This document shows, in pieces, positions 5,111 through 62,983 of a stretch of 64,000 bases of DNA (its first letter is position 1; each line of letters starts with the position of its first letter). The notes below the pieces were generated by a model, which did no database searches, was not told the origin of the DNA, and saw only the letters and a list, made by a program, of their open reading frames with translations. This stretch comes from Conchocele bisecta. Its lineage: Eukaryota > Mollusca > Bivalvia > Lucinida > Thyasiridae. The stretch covers positions 33,899,175 through 33,963,174 of the forward strand of contig CM055269.1 of NCBI GenBank assembly GCA_029237695.1, written 5' to 3'. The translations under genes were made by a program, and so were the position numbers.

Positions 5111-6616
5111 AGGTACATGCCCACTCAGTAGGCATAACAAATGGAGACAGATAGTTTTGTATACTAGTATTCTGTGGATATGACATTTATCTGGTAAACT
5201 AAACATTCATTCACCATTACCCCACGTATTGGTTGGCATTATTATACATTTTATATCAGACGTAAATTTTCACACTGATATCAGGGGCGATAACCATGTT
5301 TCCTTAAAATTTTAATGGACATTACTATTTATTTTCTGTATTTACTTTTTGATGTGTTGGGGGTATATAGGAGTCAGCTTGTCGGTCGGTCGGTCTGTCT
5401 GTCGGTCCGTTGGAAATTCCCTTCGGCTCTATATCTTCTACACCCATGCATGGATTATCAAATGGCTTGGCACAAATGTTTCTCATGATGAGAAGGTGTG
5501 TCGCGATAAATAACCACGCACCTACGTCCAAGGTCAAGGTCACAGTTGAAGGTCAAAGGTCAAACCTATCGAAATTCCCTTCCGCTCTATATGTTCTACA
5601 ACGATGCATGGATTATCAAATGGCTTGGCACAAATGTTTCTCACGATGAGAAGGTGTGTCACGATCAATAACCACGCACCTACGTCCAAGGTCAAGGTCA
5701 CAGTTGAAGGTCAAAGGTCAAACCTATTGAAATTCCCTTCCGCTCTATATCTTCTACACCGATGCATGGATTATCAAATTGCTTGGCACACATGTTTCTC
5801 ATGATGAGAAGGTGTGTTGCGATCAATAACCACGCACCTACGTCCAAGGTCAAGGTCACAGTTGAAGGTCAAAGGTCAAACCTATCGAAATTCCTTTCCG
5901 CTCTATATCTTCTACACCGATGCATGTATTATCAAATGGCTTGGCACATGAGAAGGTGCGTCGCGATCAATAACCACGCACCTACGTCCAAGGTCAAGGT
6001 CACAGTTGAAGGTCAAAGGTCAAACCTATTGAAATTCCCTTCTGCTCTATATCTTCTACACCGATGCATTGATTATCAAATGGTTTGGCACAAATGTTTC
6101 TCATGATGAGAAGGTGTGTCGCGATCAATAACCACGCACCTACGTCCAAGGTCAAGGTCACAGTTGAAGGTCAAAGGTCAAACCTATTGAAATTCCCTTC
6201 CGCTCTATATCTTCTACACCGATGCATGGATTATCACACTATGCCCAGGGTCAAGGTCACAGACTTTATGCGTTTGAAACCTTAATGCTCGGCTAAATGG
6301 CTTATAATCAAAAATGCCTCGTTTTCTTTGGCTGCCAGTGGGGGTATTCGTGTGCCGACAGGCCACATTTCTAGTTTTGTTCAGGTGATTCATTTAATTA
6401 ATAGTATAAATAATTTAAAAATATCATGCCTCATTTGCATATGAAAATAACCTGATATCACCGCGAGTCACTATCAGTAAAATAAATATTACAAAATGAT
6501 TATACCTGTATAGCGGACAAGTGTAATATTTTAGAACCGGTGGAATAGTGACACAATTATACACTTATTTAATTCCTTTAATGAACATTCTGTGCCTACT
6601 GTGTGGGGATGTACCT
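5111..6616. repeat. Family M element, copy M2, split by a minisatellite
   Basis: Left end aggtacatgcccactcagta and right end gtgtggggatgtaccttt. Between tttttgatgtg (5345) and gttcaggtgattc (6377) lies about 1 kb absent from M1, starting ttgggggtatataggagtc. Confidence 0.75.
5409..6240 (+). repeat. 158-bp tandem repeat, about five units
   Basis: The word atgca in gatgcatggattatc recurs at 5446, 5604, 5762, 5920, 6064 and 6222, giving spacings of 158, 158, 158, 144 and 158. The short unit has lost 14 bases. Each unit holds ccaaggtcaaggtcacagtt and aggtcaaaggtcaaacc. The open frames running through it are a by-product of the repeat, not a protein I recognise. Confidence 0.93.
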
Positions 6617-14109: not shown

Positions 14110-14265
14110 GAGATTAAATTGTTAAATTGAGGGAACGAATTGCCATTTCGTGGGAAAGAATTGTTATATCGTGGGAACGAATTGTTAAATTGAGGGAACG
14201 AATTGTTATTTCGTGGGAACGAATTAATAAAAAAAAAAGTTATACGTCCACTGCGGGGCTCCGTA
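14110..14265. repeat. Family B element B1, right arm only
   Basis: Modules read from the right end inwards: ACGAAATAAC, TCAATTTAAC, ACGATATAAC, ACGAAATAAC, TCAATTTAAC (complement strand), each behind AATTCGTTCCC. Right end ctgcggggctccgta. The left arm is missing. Confidence 0.85.
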
Positions 14266-15239: not shown

Positions 15240-15717
15240 GGGGCCCGTTTCTACGGAGCCCCGCAGGGAACGTAGAACTATTTTTTTATTAATTCGTTCC
15301 CACCACGAATTAACAATATGTTCCCTCAATTTAACAATTGTTGTTATTTCGTGAGAACAGAATTGTTATATAGTGGGAACGAATTGTTAATTCGAGGGAA
15401 TGAGTTGTTAAATTGAGGGAACGAATTGTTATTTCGTGGGAACGAATTAAAAAAAAGGCATGCCCCCTGCGGGGCTCCGTACGTTTCACTAAACTTCGTA
15501 CGACTAAAATGTTCGTAAGTGCAAATTTAGGATTGTCTGGAAATTTCAAGTGATGGATTTACATTTATTGAACATAGGCTGCATATGCAGCCTATGCTCA
15601 CTAAATGTAAATCAATCAATTGGTTACAAGAAAACAATGTTAATGTGAAATTTACAGACTATCAAAACGTTGCACTTACGAATATTTAACCGTACGAAGT
15701 TTAGTAAACCGGCCCCC
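15240..15717 (+). repeat. Family A palindrome, copy A4, interrupted by B2
   Basis: ggggcccgtttc at 15240 continues as cgtttcactaaacttcgtac at 15482. The right end is agtaaaccggcccccag. Core gcataggctgcatatgcagc, short arm left, long arm right. Removing B2 and one CGTTTC gives a normal A copy. Confidence 0.93.
15252..15481. mobile_element. Family B element B2 with 6-bp target duplication
   Basis: 230 bp from tacggagccccgcag to ctgcggggctccgta, flanked by CGTTTC at 15246-15251 and 15482-15487. It is inserted in family A. Left modules: a damaged one and TCAATTTAAC. Right, from the outside: ACGAAATAAC, TCAATTTAAC, TCGAATTAAC, ACGATATAAC, ACGAAATAAC. Confidence 0.95.
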
Positions 15718-16595
15718 AGATGCATGTATACTGGGCATCACCTCAACTGGGCGTGTTTTCTGATGGCGGGCCGTACAGTTGGGCCCGGCTACCGTGAGCT
15801 TGCCGCCTGTTGCAGCAATCATGCACGCCCTGTAACCTGTGAACTAATTCAACCCCCGAGCCAGCTGTGCGTAGCGATACAGAATGACATTTCTTTGACA
15901 TGTCGGCGTAGAACCCGTATTGCTGTGCGATTCACACCAGCACTGTGCCACAGATTCATACATATAAAACTTGTTATGTAAGACAATGCAAGCAAGCACA
16001 ACATACACTTTATATTATTATACAAGTGTGTGGAAAATATGAATATATTGTCATTAAACTAAATGATTAAAGCTGATTCTACGCAAACGCAAACACAAAG
16101 TAGTCCGTGATCCCTGAGCCGAATCATACAACCCGACAAGCGAGCTAAGAGGTTGATCTGAGGTCATAAGTTTTGGCGTATATGCTAAGTAACTTTAGTG
16201 CAGTAGTCGGGTAACGCTTGAGGTCAATCGAATGCCGACTGGCATCTAATTTATGCCCGTCGATTATAATCAAGTGACATTTGAAAAAGATTTTAACTAA
16301 AAAAAATCCTTTATGACATATGAGTCCGCGGGTTTTGTATAAATGTTTATTATTATTTTGACGGCGTGGTTTATCGGCGTTCGGTCATTGCGAGGTCAGC
16401 GCAACGCAGGTCAAACGGGGTAACATTTTCTTTACACCTCATTGCAAAAGGTAGGATGATAGAGTTTCTAATCGTTCTGGCTATCATGCTGTGTGCCTGT
16501 CTGTCAGCGGATACGATCAGCCTTTCTATTGGCTGATGTGTTACAAAGTCAACCCTTAAACGGCGGGAACCGAACTTGTCTGCTACTTTTCATAT
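15718..16595. other. No gene recognised
   Basis: An open frame of 103 codons at 15670-15981 starts inside A4 and has no known motif. The rest shows no match to the repeat families. Confidence 0.35.
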
Positions 16596-17403: not shown

Positions 17404-17713
17404 GTACGCGGAGCCCCGCAGCGGATGTAGAATTATTTTTTTATTAATTCGTTTCCACGAAATAACAATTCGTTCACTCAATTTAACAATTCGTTCCCAC
17501 GAATTAACAATTCGTTCCCTCAATTTAACAATTCGTTCCCACGAAATAACAATTCGTTCCCACGGGAACGAATTGTTAATTCCTGCGAACGAATTATTAT
17601 ATCGTGGAAACGAATTGTTAAATTGAGGGAACGAATTGTTATTTCGTGGGAATTGTTATTTCGTGGGAATGAATTAATAATAATAAAATCCATGTCCCCT
17701 GCGGGGCTCCGTA
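17404..17713. mobile_element. Family B element B3
   Basis: tacgcggagccccgcag to ctgcggggctccgta. Flanks ctactg and ctgctg could be a target duplication with one change. Left modules: ACGAAATAAC, TCAATTTAAC, ACGAATTAAC, TCAATTTAAC, ACGAAATAAC. The centre is cgttcccacgggaacg. Confidence 0.88.
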
Positions 17714-17970: not shown

Positions 17971-18233
17971 TATGGAGCCCCGCAGGGGACGTATAATTTT
18001 AATTTTTTTATCAATTCGTTCCCACGAAATAACAATTCGTACTCTCAATTTAACAATTCGTTCCCACGAAATAACAATTCGTTCCCACGGGAACGAATTG
18101 TTAATTCGTGGGAACGAATTGTTATATCGTAGGAACGAATTGTTAATTCGAGGGAACGAATTGTTAAATTGAGGGAACGAATTGTTATTTCATGGGAACG
18201 AATTAATAAAACAAATGCATGTCCCCTGTGGAC
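17971..18233. mobile_element. Family B element B4, right end damaged
   Basis: tatggagccccgcagggga at the left; the right stops at tgtcccctgtgg without ggctccgta. Left modules: ACGAAATAAC, TCAATTTAAC, ACGAAATAAC. Right, from the outside: ACGAAATAAC, TCAATTTAAC, TCGAATTAAC, a diverged ACGATATAAC, ACGAATTAAC. Confidence 0.85.
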
Positions 18234-25246: not shown

Positions 25247-25546
25247 TACGGAGCCCCGCAGGGGACATGGATTTTTTTTCATTAATTCGTTCCCACGAAA
25301 TAACAATTCGTTCCCTCAATTTAACAATTCGTTTCCTCGAATTAACAATTCGTTCCCACGATATAACAATTCGTTCCCACGATATAATAATTCGTTCCCT
25401 CGAGTTAACAATTCCCATGGGAACGAATTGTTATTTCGTGGGAACGAATTGTTAATTCGTGGGAATGAATTGTTAAATTGAGGGAACGAATTGTTATTTC
25501 GTGGGAACGAATTAATGAATTGTACGTCCCCTGCGGTGGCTCCGTA
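25247..25546. mobile_element. Family B element B5 with 6-bp target duplication
   Basis: 300 bp from tacggagccccgcagggga to ctgcggtggctccgta, flanked by CGTCTC at 25241-25246 and 25547-25552. Left modules: ACGAAATAAC, TCAATTTAAC, TCGAATTAAC, ACGATATAAC, ACGATATAAT, TCGAGTTAAC. Right, from the outside: ACGAAATAAC, TCAATTTAAC, ACGAATTAAC, ACGAAATAAC. Confidence 0.95.
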
Positions 25547-27828: not shown

Positions 27829-29285
27829 TATAAAGATGTTCTGCCACAATGTAACGTTCCACCACAGTGTAGTGATGTTCCACCACATTATAAGACCGTT
27901 CCGGTACAATATAAGGATGTTCCATTACACTATACGGATGTTACATCACACTACAAGCCTTTTCCATCACAACATAAGCTTGTTCCATCACGATATGAGG
28001 GTGTTCCACCACAATATACGGATGCTCCATCACAACATAATACTGTTTAATCACACTATAGTGCAGTTCTACCACGATATAAATATGTTTATTCAAACTA
28101 TAAGGCAGTGCCACACAATATAAAGCAGTTTCATCACAATATAAGGCAGATAAAACACATTATAAGGCAGTCTTCACACATTATAAAGATGTTCCATCAC
28201 AATATCAGGAACATTACTTGCACTGTAAGACAGTTCACCACAATATAAGGATGTACCACCACACTATAATGCAGTTCCAACACATTATAATACAGTTCCA
28301 TCGCAATATAAGGATGTTCCGTCACACTATAAGGATGTTCCGTCACAATATAAGGCTGTTCCATCACAATATAAGGATGCTCCACCACAGAATATTATGT
28401 TTCCTCACACTATAAGACAGTTTCACCACACTATAATACATTTTCGTCACAATATACGGCAGTGCCACCACATTATAAGGCGGTCACCACAAGATAATGA
28501 TGTTCCACCACACTATAAAGGATGTTTCACCACATAATTAATGGTGTTTCATAACAATATAAGGCACTTCCACCACACTATAAGGCAAATTAATTACAAT
28601 ATAAGACAGTTCCACCACTATATAATGATGTTGCATCACGATATAAGGATACATCACCACCATATAAAGATATTTTGTCACAATATAAGGCAGTTCCACC
28701 ACAATATAAGACAGTGTCGTCACACTATATGGCAGTGCCACCACATTATAAGGCGGCTTCACCACCATATAATGATGTTCCACCACACTATAAGGACGTT
28801 CCACCACAGTATAATGATGTTTAGTGACAATATAAGGCAAATTAATTACAATATAAGACCGTTCTACCACATTATAAGGCAGTTTCACCATAATATAGGG
28901 ATGTTCAGCCACACTATAAGGCAGTTATCACGCAGTATACGGCAGTTCCATTACATACAAGAATGTTCCACCACTCTCAAAGGATGTTCCACCACGATAT
29001 AATGATGCTCCATCACATTATACATATGTTTCCTCACAAATAAGGCAGTTCCACCACAATATAAGGCAGTTTCGTCACACTATAATGCATTTTCATCACA
29101 TTATACGGCAGTTTCACCACAACATAATGTGGTTCCACCACCACACTATAATGATGTTCCATCACAATATAAGGCAGTTGCATCACACTACATGTATAAG
29201 GATGTAATCAGCACGACATAAGGATGTTCCACCAGATTATAAGGCTGCTCCGCCACCTCAATATAATAATAAGGAAGTTACAAAT
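27829..29285 (+). repeat. 21-bp minisatellite, about 1.45 kb
   Basis: The unit is GTTCCACCACAATATAAGG plus two variable bases; by length there are about 65-70 units. Common swaps are CAC/CAT, AATAT/CTATA and GGCA/GGAT. Because 21 is a multiple of 3, long frames with seven-residue repeats (PPHYKDV-like) run through both strands. These are by-products of the period. Confidence 0.95.
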
Positions 29286-31107: not shown

Positions 31108-31380
31108 TACGGAGCCCTGCAGGCGACATGGATTTTTTTATTAATTCGTTCCCACAAAATAACGATTCGTTCCCTCAATTTAACAATTCGTTCCCTCGAA
31201 TTAACAATTCGTTCCCACGATATAACAATTCGTTCCCTCGAATTAACAATTAGTTACCACGAAATAACAATTCGTTCCTTCAATTTAACAATTCGTTCCC
31301 TTTATTTCGTGGGAACGAATTGTTATGTCATGGGAACGAATTAATAAAGAAAATTAATTATACGTCCCCTGCGGGGCTCA
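31108..31380. mobile_element. Family B element B6
   Basis: tacggagccctgcaggcgac at the left; gtcccctgcggggctca at the right, with the final bases changed. Flanking atgtat at 31101 and 31383 may be the target duplication. Left modules: a changed ACGAAATAAC, TCAATTTAAC, TCGAATTAAC, ACGATATAAC, TCGAATTAAC, ACGAAATAAC, TCAATTTAAC. Confidence 0.85.
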
Positions 31381-31792
31381 TTATGTATGTAAACACTAGC
31401 CCAGGTATTTCGATATGTGAGCTTGAAGAGCGAAGCGATTATGTCAAGTGTTGATATGAGGTAAATATTGATCTCGTTGTGTTTATTGTTTTCCTCCCGT
31501 GGCCATGCTTATTTGTCAAGGCACGAATCGAGTCCATGGATATTTTAGGCGAACTTCATTTGTCTGACCATTGGAATGGTAATCCAAATTGTCTGGCTGT
31601 CACGCAGGGCGACTTACGACTGTATGACAACCAGAAAATTCGGATTATTGGAATTGGTGATTCCATTCCAATACTGATAGGAAAGGGGAATGTCTTTCTT
31701 TGTCATAGGGTAGTTCAAATGAAATGATACAATATTCATTTTAGCTTACAACTTCTAACAGTGACGCTGTGTATATGATTATGAAATATCCT
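31381..31792. other. No gene recognised
   Basis: An 82-codon frame (31479-31727) of mixed composition, including NGNPNCLAVTQGDLRLYD, is open and outside the repeats. I recognise no family, see no splice context and do not call it. Confidence 0.3.
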
Positions 31793-32934: not shown

Positions 32935-33132
32935 CACGGAGCCCCGCAGGAGACGTACAATTCTTTTTTTTATTAATTCGTTCCCACGATGTAACAATTC
33001 GTTCCCTTAATTTAACAATTCGTTCCCACGAATTAACAATTCGTTCCCACGAATTACCAATTCGAGGAACGAATTGTTATTCCGTGGGAAATAATTAATT
33101 AAACAAATCCATGTCCCCTGCGGGGCTCCGTA
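32935..33132. mobile_element. Family B element B7 with 6-bp target duplication
   Basis: 198 bp, the shortest copy with both ends. cacggagccccgcaggagac to ctgcggggctccgta, flanked by CTTATT at 32929-32934 and 33133-33138. Left modules: ACGATGTAAC, TTAATTTAAC, ACGAATTAAC, ACGAATTACC. The right arm is a single module. Confidence 0.93.
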
Positions 33133-33594: not shown

Positions 33595-34262
33595 GTACTT
33601 ATTGCTTACCAGTCAATCAGTTCTGTGAAACGTTACATGCAATGAAAGTAAAGTAACTACTCTAGACAGGTATTGTGACGAATCAGACAGCAACACATGC
33701 ACCATGTGACGTCATGCCGTATATCGTATAGTTGAACAACACCAACTGCACTAATGAAACAATAGGTTCACATACTCCTAAGAAATAAAAGAAAATCAAC
33801 ATCGTCAGGTAACACATTATTATTAACATTATTTGGTCACTGAAACTGTGCTTACATCATTGACCAACAGGTTCAGTGCTTTCAAGACGTAAATACTACG
33901 GATATTCTGATATGAAAACTGGTGTTAAACACCCCAACATGTTGCACAAGTAAAATAGAGCAGTAATGGATCAGCATATGCATGCAAATTGTGTATGTGG
34001 TCTCAAAACATAATAACTATTTTTCATACCGGACTACCCACTTGGTTCTTGAAACTATTTAGCGTATTCATACGATAACGCGGGAATTTGCTCGATCGTT
34101 CCATTGAACATGTTGAAGGCATGCACGAACTTGACATATTTATACATTTCATGTATACGTATAGATACATTTATATACAAGAGTAACATGGAAGTAATAG
34201 AAACTCCTCCGAAATCTAGAAATATCCAGAATAAATTAAGTCCCCATGTGCACATGTATGTA
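33595..34262. other. No feature recognised
   Basis: AT-rich. A frame on the minus strand (34055-34306) is hydrophobic but overlaps repeat C1 and lacks motifs. Confidence 0.35.
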
Positions 34263-34264
34263 AA

Positions 34265-34523
34265 TAGAGGATAGTAGGTTAGTATCGTGAATGGGAAAAC
34301 TACCATTCACGGCATTAACCTACTATTCTATTTATCCCGTCAACATTACAAATAGCTTTAAAATTTAAAAAATAACCCCAGCCGCATCCTCAAAATCGGA
34401 GAATCGACTAGTATGACAACCGCACATAATTCATACGCAGTGATTAGGTCGTATTGACCGGATATCAAACATGTTTCACGGCACCGTGTTTCACGGCACA
34501 TACGTACTGTGTTGACGGGATAA
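34265..34523 (+). repeat. Family C two-hairpin element, copy C1
   Basis: First hairpin: gatagtaggttagtatcgtg and cattcacggcattaaccta with most of its middle lost. Second: ttatcccgtcaacattac to gtgttgacgggataa, holding tttcacggcaccgtgtttca. It has the longer inner variant with aaaatcggagaatcgac. Confidence 0.85.
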
Positions 34524-34699
34524 ATGTATAACTTGCATGTATGCCTGTCTAAGAGTTACATATTGTTGTAAGCAAATATCAACCAACGTATGCATATTAA
34601 TGAAATAAAATGGAAATCAATTGCAGGTACAACTAAAACATAACCAAAACAAACACACTTTCGAATCCCACATTGTAAAATTGTGTCTCGTATTTATGC

Positions 34700-37037: not shown

Positions 37038-37212
37038 TGGACATGGATTTTTCATTAATTCGTTCCCACGAAATAACAATTCGTTCCCACGGTGTTATTT
37101 CGTGGGAACGAATTGTTAAATTGAGGGAACGTATTGTTAATTCGTGGGATCGAATGGTTAAATTGAGGGAACGAATTGTTATTTAGTTCCGTAGAACTGC
37201 GGAGCTCCGTAG
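37038..37212. repeat. Family B element B8, left end lost
   Basis: ggacatggatttttcatt at the left without the terminal TACGGAGCC. Modules from the centre rightwards on the complement: ACGAAATAAC, TCAATTTAAC, ACGAATTAAC, TCAATTTAAC, a damaged one. Right end ctgcggagctccgta. Confidence 0.85.
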
Positions 37213-39700: not shown

Positions 39701-39702
39701 CA

Positions 39703-39982
39703 TATATGGAGAATAGTAGTGCCATGAATGGGAAAACATATCTGCCAAAGCCTCGCCCATCCCGTGTCCGTGCCGCGTCAGATATTTTCCCCATTCACGG
39801 CACTAACCTACTATTCTATTTATCCCGTCAACACCTACAAATAGCTTTAAAATGCAATAAAATACCCCCGCCGCAACCTCAAAATCGGAGAATCGACTAT
39901 TATGACAACGGCACATATTCATACGCAGTCGTATTGACAGATATTTTTCCCATTCACGGCACTAATCTACTATTCTCTATAA
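39703..39982 (+). repeat. Family C composite, copy C2
   Basis: gagaatagtagtgccatgaa, then cggcactaacctactattct, then ttatcccgtcaacacctaca with the long inner variant. Instead of the normal end it runs into a second cattcacggcactaatctac. Confidence 0.85.
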
Positions 39983-39998
39983 CGTTCGTGAAATAAAC

Positions 39999-40235
39999 GC
40001 AATGGAAAAATATCTGGCAAGGCTTAGGAAACGGGATGGGCGAGGCTCTGCCGAGCACATCCCGTTTCCGTGCCGCGCCAGATATTTTTCCCATTCATGG
40101 CACTAACCTACTATTCTATTTATCCCGTCAACACATACAAATGGCTGTAAAATGCAAAACTAGTATTGACTGGATATCAAAAATGTTTCACGGCACCGTG
40201 TTTCACGGCACATACGCACTGTGTTGACGGGATAA
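39999..40235 (+). repeat. Family C two-hairpin element, copy C3
   Basis: aatggaaaaatatctggcaa, aacgggatgggcgaggctct and its partner, then ttatcccgtcaacacataca to gtgttgacgggataa. Left TIR missing. Confidence 0.88.
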
Positions 40236-40239
40236 ACAG

Positions 40240-41875: not shown

Positions 41876-41879
41876 ATTG

Positions 41880-41983
41880 GCGCTGCACGGATTCGGGATG
41901 TGCTCGGCAGAGCCTCGCGCATCCCGTTTACTAAGCCTTGCCAGATAGTCTTTTCCCATTCACGGCACTAACCTTCTATTCTC
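41880..41983. repeat. Family C first hairpin only, copy C4
   Basis: gggatgtgctcggcagagcc, gcatcccgtttactaagcct, cattcacggcactaacct. It lacks the left end and the second hairpin. Confidence 0.8.
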
Positions 41984-41999
41984 TATATGCCTGCTATAT

Positions 42000-42580: not shown

Positions 42581-42616
42581 TACGGAGCCCCGCAGGCGAC
42601 GTGGAATTATTTTGTA
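42581..42616. repeat. Family B left end fragment
   Basis: tacggagccccgcaggcgac, then gtggaattattttg, cut off by the C palindrome. It probably belongs to the same B copy as the modules at 43055-43334. Confidence 0.8.
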
Positions 42617-43053
42617 TTATAGTGAATAGTAGGTCAGTGCCGTGAATGGAAAAAATATCCGGCAAGGCTCAAGAATTTCTTTATTTCTCATCAGAAGTAT
42701 ATGTTGCGACCACTCATTTGAACCGTCTCGCCGAGACGGTTCAAATGAGTGGTCACAACATATACTTTGGTTCAGAAATAAGGAAAATAGATAGAGAATA
42801 GTAGGTTAGTGTCGTGAATGGGAAAACATATCTGGCAAGGCTCAGGAAACGGGATGGGCGAGGCTCTGCCGAGCACATCCGTTTCCGTGCCGCGCCAGAT
42901 ATTTTTTCCCATTCACGGCACTAACCTACTATTCTATTTATCCCGTCAACACCTACAAATGGCGTCAAAATGCAAAAATAGTATTGACTGGATATCAAAA
43001 ATGTTTCACGGCACCGTGTTTCGCGGCACATACGCACTGTGTTGACGGGATAA
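42610..43053 (+). repeat. Family C composite, copy C5 (left arm of the palindrome)
   Basis: gaatagtaggtcagtgccgt, S hairpin (42690-42775), agagaatagtaggttagtgt, the full first hairpin, then ttatcccgtcaacaccta to gtgttgacgggataa. Confidence 0.9.
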
Positions 43054-43336
43054 AATTCGTTCCCGCGAAATAACCATTCATTCCCTCATTTTAACAATTC
43101 GTTCCCACGAATCAACAATTCGTTTAAACGAATTAACAATTCGTTGCCTCAATTTAACAATTCGTTCCCACGAAACAACAATTCGTTCCCACGATATAAC
43201 AATTGTTATATCGTGGGAACTAATTGTTAATTCGAGGGAACCAATTGTTATTTCGTGGGAATGAATTGTCAATTCGAGGGAACGAATTGTTATTTCGTGG
43301 GAATGAATTGTCAATTCCAGGGAACGAATTGTTATT
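43054..43336. repeat. Family B module array B9 (centre of the palindrome)
   Basis: Left: GCGAAATAAC, TCATTTTAAC, ACGAATCAAC, a changed ACGAATTAAC, TCAATTTAAC, ACGAAACAAC, ACGATATAAC. Right from the centre: ACGATATAAC, then TCGAATTAAC and ACGAAATAAC alternating three times. The last module is cut by ttatcccgtc. Confidence 0.88.
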
Positions 43337-43742
43337 TATCCCGTCAACACAGTGCGTATGTGCCGTGAAACACAGTGCCGTGAAACATTTTTGATATCCA
43401 GTCAATACTATTTTTGCATTTTAACGCCATTTTTAGGTGTTGACGGGATAAATAGAATAGTAGGTTAGTGCCGTGAATGGGAAGAGCCTCGGCAGAGCCT
43501 CGCCCATCCCGTTTCCTGAGCCTTGCCAGATATTTTTTCCCATTCACGGCACTAACCTACTATTCTCTATCTATTTTCCTTATTTCTGAACCAAAGTATA
43601 TGTTGTGACCACTCATTTGAACCGTCTCGTGCGAGATTCAAATGAGTGGTCACAACATATACTTCTGATGAGAAATAAAGAAATTCTTGAGCCTTGCCGG
43701 ATATTTTTTCCCATTCACGGCACTAACCTACTGTTCTCTATT
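43337..43742 (-). repeat. Family C composite, copy C6 (right arm of the palindrome)
   Basis: ttatcccgtcaacacagtgc to ggtgttgacgggataa, then agaatagtaggttagtgccg, first hairpin, S hairpin (43577-43690) and cggcactaacctactgttct. The mirror of C5. Confidence 0.9.
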
Positions 43743-47464: not shown

Positions 47465-49180
47465 TCGTGCATTCATAAACGTTGATATTGAAGCGGAAAA
47501 ACGTGCCGCCCTGACAAAGAAATAAATATAATAATAAAGTGCTGACAGAGTTAGGCATTGTATTCTGTCAAACTGCATTGCATTATGGATTAGGTTGTCC
47601 AAGTCACCAATGTTTCACTTTTGACCTTGGCTATGGATTCGTTATGTCTCTGCCGCTCAATTTGAAGCTTTCGATTGGACATGTCTGTTATCACAGGTGA
47701 TTCTAGCGTGTGTTGGGTGGTCAATTATTGTTTGTATATACATGAAACACCTTTCTAAACAATGTACAAAATGTATGAGGATTATGTAATTATGAAAGGT
47801 ACTAAACCGGCATTCGTCACCATTGTATGAAAATCCCACACGAAGTCGTAAATTCATACTCGCATTACAGCTTGTCGAAACCGCTGTTTGGGGTGGGAGT
47901 TCGGCATAGCTGTTACAGTTGCTAATACATTATATTTACTCCGTTATATAGCAGTATTGGCCTCGGAAATGTGTCCGATCTTTTACGACCTAGCAATAAT
48001 GCTGATTCTTTTAAAACAAAACAATGTACGTACAGCTCGAAAACGCGTTGACATAGCGCATCGGGAAATATATCGTTGCGGAGTACTAACATTGTCCCAA
48101 CTTCTGCAATAGGCGACAATGATATAAGTCGGTTGACGTTTCGTGAGAGTCCGTTGTCTCGAGGCCGTCCGGGTTCGGCCTATTAAAAACTTCGTAACCT
48201 TCTATATGGAGTATATGGAGGGAGTAAAAACATTTTTTAGCTTCACTTGAGGAACATGTGGGGTGTTGGTCATGTGATATAAACAGAGTTTCCGTGGCCA
48301 ATACAAAATGTAAACAATAGTGGGGGACATGACGAGGTTGGATTTTTATTTCTTAGGAGTAAGTGAACCTATTATTTAATTCATGCAGAACCAGTACAGA
48401 CCGGCTGCAGGTTATGTACAAGTAGGTCACAACATCCATACGAATAGTGCAAGTAGGAGAGACTGGCCTTATTGGATGGGATTTGGTTAAAGTATATATA
48501 TAGTAAAACTATTTGATGTCTTCTAACCTATACTGTGATAATTTGTGGGTGAAATCTTACATCAACACAGGCATTGGAGGTGTGACTTGAACAGCCAATC
48601 AGATGTCGGACTACAATTTATTAGAGGGAGAATTACTTGAGCGGACAGCAGTGCCATCTGACGTCATAATGACGCACTACTAACCCATATATTGCTTGCA
48701 TCATTCTGCTTGATGTTTTCTGCTTGCGACTTTCCGCTTTCGGACTGTGGCTTGATGCTTACTTCCTGCGGCTTTGTCCTTACTGCTTTCGGCCTTATTC
48801 AACGTGATAAGTGCTTTGTTCTTACTTGCTATTGCAAATGCTTAGTGCAATAAAACAGGGACACGAATAAGGACGTATAAATAATTGTAATGTAAATAAG
48901 ACGAATGAACAAAGCAATCAGCAGAATGGACATGTAAGAAAGACAAATATAATTACAACAAGCAGATTTCAAATGTAATAAATACAAATGACGAACATGA
49001 ATATAAGCTATGATGTCATCAGCACGCAAGCATCAAGTCACATAGAATTATGGCGGATATTACATTCCATAGCGTGTTGCCACGAAATGTATAAATTCTG
49101 GTACAATCCGCGATACAAATGTATATACGACGACAATATATATGCAACATACATGTATATACGTTTAGCAATATAGGAGT
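47465..49180. other. Longest stretch without recognised repeats; no gene called
   Basis: A 74-codon frame at 47888 and a 71-codon frame on the other strand at 48086 are open but lack motifs. A loosely repeated tgcttgcgactttccgcttt, tgcttgatgcttacttcctg region is at 48700-48800. I see no RNA gene. Confidence 0.35.
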
Positions 49181-49181
49181 T

Positions 49182-49519
49182 TTATCCCGTCAACACAGTG
49201 TGTATGTGCCGTGAAACACGGTGACGTGAAACATTTTTGATATCCTGTCAATACGACCTAATCAATGAGTATGAATATGCGCCGTTGTCATACTAGTTGA
49301 TTCCCCGATTTTGAGGATGCGGCTCGGGTTATTTTTTGCATTTTAAAGCTATTTGTACTGTTGACGGGATACATAGAATAGTAGATTAGTGCCGTGAATG
49401 GGAAAAATATCTGGCGCGGCACGGAAACGGGATGGGCTCGGCAGAACCTCGCCCATCCCGTTTCCTAAGCCTTGCCAGATATTATTACCATTCACAGCAA
49501 TAACCTACTATTCTCTATA
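49182..49519 (-). repeat. Family C two-hairpin element, copy C7
   Basis: ttatcccgtcaacacagtgt to gtgttgacggg-type inner end, long inner variant (gattccccgattttgaggat), then agaatagtagattagtgccg to taacctactattctctata. Confidence 0.92.
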
Positions 49520-49689
49520 TAGCCGGTTGGGTTGAGACGTTTGCCGCTCATACAATGGAATAATTATAATGTATTTAGGTCCACCATCACCACTATTGAT
49601 TTTTGCTCCCTAAACTAACAAATGACCACACATTTTGCTTTTCTCTGCTACTTTCATTTTTCGTATGAATGTTGTGTGACTTACTTTCT

Positions 49690-50340
49690 CATAACCTGCA
49701 CCTATTCTGCTCTGGATATTCACTAATTAAAATATAGGTTTTAATTATTGTTAAGAAAAATAAATTCAATCTCCTGTGACCACCCTGGTTGTGGCTTAAA
49801 AATTCAGCGGCTGGGATTGAAACCGCCTCACCTGATAAAGATGCTCTGACTTACAAAATAACGCCAAAGCATATGCTTGAAACTGATGTAAATGATACAT
49901 TATCCCATCAACACAGTGCGTATGTGCCGTGAAAAACGGTGCCGTGAAACATTTTTGATATCCAGTCAATACTATTTTTGCATTTTACAGCCATTTGTAG
50001 GTGTTGACGGGATAATTAGAATAGTATGTTAGTGCCGTGAATGGGAAAACATATCTGGCGCGGCACGGAAACGAGATGTGCTCGGCAGAGCCTCGCCCAT
50101 ACCGTTTCCTGAGCCTTGCCAGATATTATTTCCCATTCACGGCACTAACCTACTATTCTCTATTTAACATGCCTGTGAAGTAGATTAGTGCATCAATTGA
50201 TTGCTTTCTGCAAGCAAGAGTGTCTATGGTATAACAAATCCGGCTTATTTTCTTAACGTACTACTTTTGACTACACCGCGCAACCGCGCATGAATATCTG
50301 ATGATTTAGCGTGGTTAAACCTTTACGTGCTGCATTTTAC
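49690..50340 (+). repeat. Family F copy, interrupted by C8
   Basis: attctgctctggatattcac, taattaaaatatagg; agcatatgcttgaaactgat; then after C8 gtagattagtgcatcaattg, ctgcaagcaagagtgtctat and gaatatctgatgatttagcg. Confidence 0.75.
49900..50163 (-). repeat. Family C two-hairpin element, copy C8, inside F
   Basis: ttatcccatcaacacagtgc to ggtgttgacgggataa, then agaatagtatgttagtgccg to taacctactattctctat. Short inner variant. Confidence 0.92.
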
Positions 50341-62622: not shown

Positions 62623-62983
62623 TACGGAGCCCCGCAGGGGACATGGATTATTTTCATTAATTCGTTCGCACTTTAATAACAATTCGTTCCCTCGAATTAG
62701 CAATTCGTTCCCACGATATAACAATTCGTTCGCACTTTAATAACAAATCGTTCCCTCGAATTAACAATTCGCTCCCACGAAATGACAATTCGTTCCCTCA
62801 ATTTAACAATTCGTTCCGGCCTCGAATTAACAATTCGTTCCCTCCATTTAACAATTGTTATTTCGTGGGAACGAATTGTTAATTCGTGGGAACGAATTGT
62901 TAAATTGAGGGAAATAATTGTTATTTCGTGTGAACGAAGTAATTAAAAAAAAAAAAATTCTACGTCCCCTGCGGGGCTCCGTA
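62623..62983. mobile_element. Family B element B10, longest copy
   Basis: 361 bp from tacggagccccgcagggga to ctgcggggctccgta. No matching 6-base flanks seen. Left modules include an unusual GCACTTTAATAAC type twice. Right, from the outside: ACGAAATAAC, TCAATTTAAC, ACGAATTAAC, ACGAAATAAC. Confidence 0.93.

Follow-up and report, generated by a model that had tools for sequence, protein, structure and literature searches.

The DNA at positions 15,252 to 15,481 of the window (the whole stretch that we analysed, 64,000 nucleotides of the Conchocele bisecta contig CM055269.1) is built of inverted arms of 21-bp modules, and it raises the question of whether such a structure is a transposon, to which group it would belong, and whether the order of its modules is inherited or free to change. 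Ten sites in the window show TACGGAGCC...GGCTCCGTA ends or module arrays, and these are copies or fragments of what we call here the TACGG element; a previous reading made from the letters of the window (the sequence-only reading) had counted ten as well, and module arrays were indeed found at ten places. Allowing up to two mismatches, the window contains the 15-base end TACGGAGCCCCGCAG 15 times, compared with a mean of 0.01 in shuffled sequences. The end is followed by a T-rich spacer of about 20-30 bases and then by 21-bp modules, in each of which AATTCGTTCCC precedes a 10-base tail; the arms join in inverted orientation. Spacers are of two kinds, type I (GGGGACATGGATTTT..) and type II (GGGGACGTAGAATT..). 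The five module types that had been proposed are real, discrete tail classes set by the variable module positions 12, 14, 16 and 17:

Module class A: tail ACGAAATAAC
Module class B: tail TCAATTTAAC
Module class C: tail ACGAATTAAC
Module class D: tail ACGATATAAC
Module class E: tail TCGAATTAAC

Of the 446 modules with no more than one mismatch in the core, 339 show one of these five combinations; the next commonest (n=20) can be read as the element's centre. Successive modules are exactly 21 bp apart in 369 of at least 409 steps. Using this code, and reading each arm from the outside, the ten sites are as follows, E1 being on the minus strand and the others without an assigned strand (TSD, target-site duplication):

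E1, 14117..14265, minus strand: single arm with its end, A B D, degenerate A, B.
E2, 15252..15481: complete, 230 bp, sitting in the terminal repeat of another MITE; left arm type II, C-like module and B; right arm type I, A B E D, then degenerate A; TSD CGTTTC/CGTTTC, left at 15246..15251 and right at 15482-15487.
E3, 17405..17713: about 309 bp; left arm type II, A B C B A; right arm type I, A (A) B D C; left end starting at 17405 with TACGCGGAGCC; TSD by eye CTACTG/CTGCTG (5/6).
E4, 17971..18230: left arm type II, A B A; right arm type I, A B E D C; right end eroded, right limit approximate.
E5, 25247..25546: left arm type I, A B E D D E; right arm type II, A B C A; one-base insertion in the right end; TSD by eye CGTCTC/CGTCTC, outside the 41 copies counted below.
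E6, 31108..31383: left arm type I, A B E D E A B; right arm type II, two A-like modules; TSD TGTATA/TGTATG (5/6).
E7, 32935..33132: left arm type II, D B C C; right arm type I, A; TSD CTTATT/CTTATT.
E8, 37039..37211: left end lost, left limit approximate; left arm with type I spacer and module A; right arm a damaged first module, then B C B A.
E9, 42581..43741: TACGG end at 42581, with arms of another palindromic family in place of modules next to it; 21-bp module array in the centre at 43054-43337; right TACGG end absent.
E10, 62623..62983: 361 bp; left arm type I, diverged array; right arm type II, A B C A; no recognisable TSD (1/6).

The script set the start of E3 at 17407, so that it was counted without a TSD; the boundary at 17405 was drawn by eye.

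The window also holds other repeats. The MITE that hosts E2 spans about 15240-15730 and has the ends GGGGCCSGTTT..ACTAAACTTCGTACG. The units of a second palindromic family are TTATCCCGTCAACAC..GTGTTGACGGGATAA and AGAATAGTAGGTTAGTGCCGTGAATGGG..; this family occupies 34261-34524, 39702-40236, 41878-41991, 42619-43741 and 49177-50166, and its stretch at 42.6-43.7 kb surrounds an array of 21-bp modules beside a TACGG end. At 27854-29187 a different 21-bp unit, GTTCCATCACAATATAAGGCA, is repeated about 62 times in a degenerate array (67% matches) that has no TACGG ends and whose motif and period resemble those of the modules of the TACGG element. A tandem repeat with a 158-bp unit (about 5 copies, 91% matches) lies at 5413-6236. 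Three of the six window ORFs of at least 120 aa, including the one that overlaps E5, were searched against Pfam and gave no match.

The genome-wide search for the ends that had been proposed from the sequence alone proved productive, the TACGG end at one mismatch or fewer being found 34,629 times in the 1.89 Gb (1196 contigs) searched, compared with 33 for the same pattern read backwards as a control; if every end has a partner, this corresponds to about 17,000 copies. Two exact patterns had 0 matches each in viral contigs. Complete copies were defined as two ends at three mismatches or fewer within 3 kb; pairing the ends present in the window and at 50 loci yielded 41 non-redundant copies, 5 of them from the window and 36 from the first 7 Mb of contig C1, which makes the sample a non-random one; the window copies with one eroded end (14117, 17971, 25247, 37039 and 42581) were left out. 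Lengths run from 198 to 562 bp in 38 of the 41, and three exceed 600 bp. One of the longer loci (L032:5022-6679, 1658 bp, exact TSD) appears by eye to be a copy with a nested palindromic element inside, and another (L039:6384-8303) two adjacent copies. At L043:4500-4622 a TACGG end is duplicated on either side of a small palindromic insert.

A 6-bp TSD is exact in 16 of the 41 copies, where random pairing (unseeded) gives a mean of 0.46, and lies within one mismatch in 27, where chance gives 1.3; the 16 exact duplications all differ from one another, and 14 copies have none at one mismatch or fewer. Other lengths tried, from 2 to 10 bp, were not clearly above chance; the closest to an exception was a single exact 5-bp match. 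Moreover, E2 splits the terminal repeat of another MITE, and when its flanks are joined with one CGTTTC they give a continuous match to the other end of that MITE. The transposon-like character with inverted arms is thus confirmed by the duplications and by this nested insertion: the TACGG element is a transposon, and it inserts with a 6-bp duplication.

Alternatively, the arrays could have been tandem repeats of a satellite kind, not a transposon in themselves but captured and dispersed by other mobile elements, as the array at 42.6-43.7 kb, lying within another palindromic family, and the 21-bp array without such ends at 27.9-29.2 kb might suggest. However, a module array is present behind 103 of 106 TACGG ends (the other three have no module within 70 bp and show, by eye, insertions or rearrangements near the end), the 6-bp duplications directly flank those ends, and the copies have a common centre and module order. 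We rejected capture on these grounds, and regard it as very improbable.

As a transposon, the TACGG element has the features of a foldback: long terminal inverted repeats with internal tandem repeats make up most of its length, and the number of modules differs among copies and between arms. The copy at 15252-15481 folds as single-stranded DNA into a single long hairpin of -65.9 kcal/mol; 200 shuffled versions average -22.4 (z -12.9).

Regarding module order, the sequence-only reading had described A then B as nearly always outermost, with inner modules differing in number and order in every copy, and had suggested a fixed outer pair beside a free-running interior. A followed by B is certainly common, but "nearly always" goes too far, module 1 being A in 64 of 82 arms and module 2 being B in 50 of 81 (41 copies, unclassified modules counted as misses). 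The number of inner modules does vary; to say the same of their order was misleading, since it is arm-specific and non-random. One type I and one type II end were found in 38 of the 41 copies, the exceptions being two with II/II and one with I/I ends; one copy with II/II spacers (L047) has ABCBA and A-D-E-D-C as its modules. When arms were typed by spacer alone and one arm of each type was forced on every copy, module type differed by arm, as only 0, 2 and 0 of 2000 within-copy swaps reached the observed value at positions 3, 4 and 5; the dependence was weaker outside, with 49 of 2000 swaps at position 2 and 628 at position 1.

Interior module adjacency exceeded that of 1000 out of 1000 shuffles on each arm, and among the 125 possible A-B-x-y-z strings the best were ABEDC for the type I arm and ABCBA for the type II arm. 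Several arms match neither. Triplets from the window and loci L001-L050 (n=499) included ABE (44, with 4.4 expected), BED (41, 3.1), ABC (22, 3.3), EDC (21, 1.9) and CBA (17, 3.3), against 8 for ABD, 7 for ABA and 2 for ABB; in all, 76 of 125 possible triplets are represented, so that scrambling has been extensive. Module runs such as ABEDC also appear to have been gained or lost as a block (L038). As exact 52-base strings, ABE and ABC were found 1415 and 928 times genome-wide, with controls at 0. The centre CGTTCCCACGGGAACG, at two mismatches or fewer, lies in one orientation in 22 of the 41 copies and reversed in 2, and an alignment of the interior only agreed with the orientation defined by the spacers in 33 of 37 (the 41 copies without the reference, L025, and the three over 600 bp). 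Module order is inherited and arm-specific, and a free-running interior is not supported.

The proposed comparison of end order with interior order gave a divided answer: outer positions are clearly more uniform, but the conclusion of a free interior fails. Entropy for positions 1-6 was 0.36, 1.13, 1.76, 2.03, 2.15 and 2.19 bits on arm I, and 0.93, 1.66, 1.97, 2.00, 1.80 and 2.25 bits on arm II. This inward climb on both arms, together with a position 1 showing no difference between arms, could mean that the outer two modules are functional transposase sites under selection while the interior array evolves freely, and selection on that pair could act at the moment of transposition. Nevertheless, the outer modules have as many core mismatches as modules 3-5 (means for modules 1-6 of 0.55, 0.60, 0.56, 0.44, 0.60 and 0.69), with no outer-to-inner gradient across modules 1-5, and the order of the interior modules depends on the arm and departs strongly from random; the same entropy profile is also obtained from an anchored register with gain and loss of whole modules. 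We therefore consider selection on a fixed outer pair improbable. The outer pair probably looks fixed because the ends anchor the register, which decays inward with each gain or loss of a module; being kept only near the end, it makes entropy by position from the end increase inward. The anchored register can account for the uniformity of the outer pair without requiring a special role for it.

The arm-specific order, the shared centre and the copies of 307-315 bp (7 of the 41: window 17407, L001, L012, L014, L025, L033 and L047) point to a single ancestor of about that length. It is probable, in our judgement, that the TACGG element is a MITE-like DNA transposon of the foldback type, non-autonomous and mobilised in trans, with IS3EU as its most likely superfamily, and that its copies descend from one ancestor of about 310 bp whose modules were later gained and lost. 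That ancestor would have read type II end, A B C B A, the palindromic centre CGTTCCCACGGGAACG, inverted C D E B A, and type I end. A transposase supplied in trans would act at the TACGG ends, joining these to target cuts with a 6-bp stagger; slippage or unequal exchange would afterwards add or remove whole 21-bp modules, or runs of them such as ABEDC, the register disappearing progressively from the ends inward until only the outermost modules look fixed. The modules, phased two helical turns apart, may provide additional transposase-binding sites, by analogy with Galileo. A further and more speculative idea, which we think rather unlikely, is that in an IS3EU-type foldback the two ends are told apart by the ordered codes A-B-E-D-C and A-B-C-B-A of helically phased, predicted binding modules, so that pairing would depend on an ordered multi-site array and not on the terminal repeat alone.

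The assignment to a superfamily was approached through the termini and the TSD. In the parts of the sources available to us, complete IS3EU families have TA..TA termini and usually a 6-bp TSD (PMC10045372), and the ends of TET-bearing fungal IS3EU elements are TAYGG..CCRTA, with inverted repeats over 30 bp (PMC12730594). The TACGG..CCGTA ends of our element, and its TSD of 6 bp (exact in 16 of 41 copies and at one mismatch or fewer in 27), agree with the IS3EU (IS3EU/GingerRoot) features in those excerpts, whereas foldback arms of 21-bp modules belong to the TACGG element and are absent from the same excerpts (PMC10045372, PMC12730594). Limited profile searches of its own genome found no element with TACGG ends enclosing a transposase, so the placement in IS3EU, the most likely one, is based on the ends and the TSD length. 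The same foldback transposon might instead come from a hAT6 lineage or from an undescribed superfamily with a 6-bp TSD; hAT families with such TSDs are known (PMC12730594, in the portion available) and no transposase is linked to TACGG ends, but the agreement of TACGG..CCGTA with IS3EU ends (PMC12730594, PMC10045372) makes this unlikely.

In its own genome, the integrase-core profile PF24764, which we infer to correspond to IS3EU, had 406 candidates, of which 150 were scored; it had 0 in 14 control genomes, a weak control as these are well-known genomes, mostly of prokaryotes. Many of the places matched by PF24764 (at least 150) have long open frames, and some pairs score identically, suggesting recent activity of DNA transposons, which is not tied to the TACGG element. 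By eye, among the 100 matches listed of the 151 exact 45-base type II ends, none was seen less than about 52 kb from such a place; among the matches listed, the closest array noticed was an exact ABE on contig C1, about 12 kb from one. The IS481 profile gave 67 scored matches of 13,649 candidates, and the two that we read are Gypsy-type pol without TACGG ends. Polintons were considered too, but their ends are AG..CT. They do share the 6-bp TSD (PMC10045372, in the part available). Dada families, in the portion of their description at hand, are without terminal inverted repeats and located in small RNA genes; Dada was rejected, as the TACGG element has such repeats, its 16 exact TSDs are all different and Rfam, run on the whole window at the gathering score, matched no family.

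The design itself is not without precedent, contrary to the earlier statement that no described element shares it: Tetris and Galileo, in the accessible text of their papers, have inverted arms with internal tandem repeats (PMC4079207, PMC3688188, PMC3573991). Tetris, from Drosophila virilis, is likewise non-autonomous, its terminal inverted repeats contain tandem repeats of variable number and its autonomous partner was not found; its repeats are of about 220 bp, whereas the TACGG element has 21-bp repeats in five classes with an arm-specific order and a whole length of about 310 bp (PMC4079207, in part). Galileo, also from Drosophila, has tandem repeats in long inverted repeats whose number changes independently in each arm, and some of these repeats bind the THAP domain of its transposase, according to the excerpts available (PMC3688188, PMC3573991). 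It differs in being much longer than the TACGG element, in having a known transposase and in belonging to the P superfamily. The P superfamily has 8-bp TSDs. FB of D. melanogaster and TU of the sea urchin also have inverted arms of short tandem repeats; judged by description and not by sequence, their ends and repeat units differ from those of the TACGG element. Both groups are cited as foldbacks in the text seen of the Tetris paper, where foldbacks are assigned mostly to Mutator, with exceptions (PMC4079207). Ordinary MITEs are similar in being short, with no coding capacity seen, a high copy number (here 34,629 ends), terminal inverted repeats and a TSD, unlike the TACGG element in that nearly the entire length of the latter is a modular inverted repeat.

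We regard the TACGG element as a new family among foldback elements. In the literature covered, which left subscription papers and Repbase outside its scope, IS3EU and foldback came together in one paper, where a cited title contains foldback and a table lists IS3EU, and their combination may perhaps be new; if the placement in IS3EU holds, one more superfamily has foldback members. The module strings can moreover be used as barcodes that record the gain and loss of units of short tandem arrays in a hairpin-forming transposon, whose copies appear to start from one known order.
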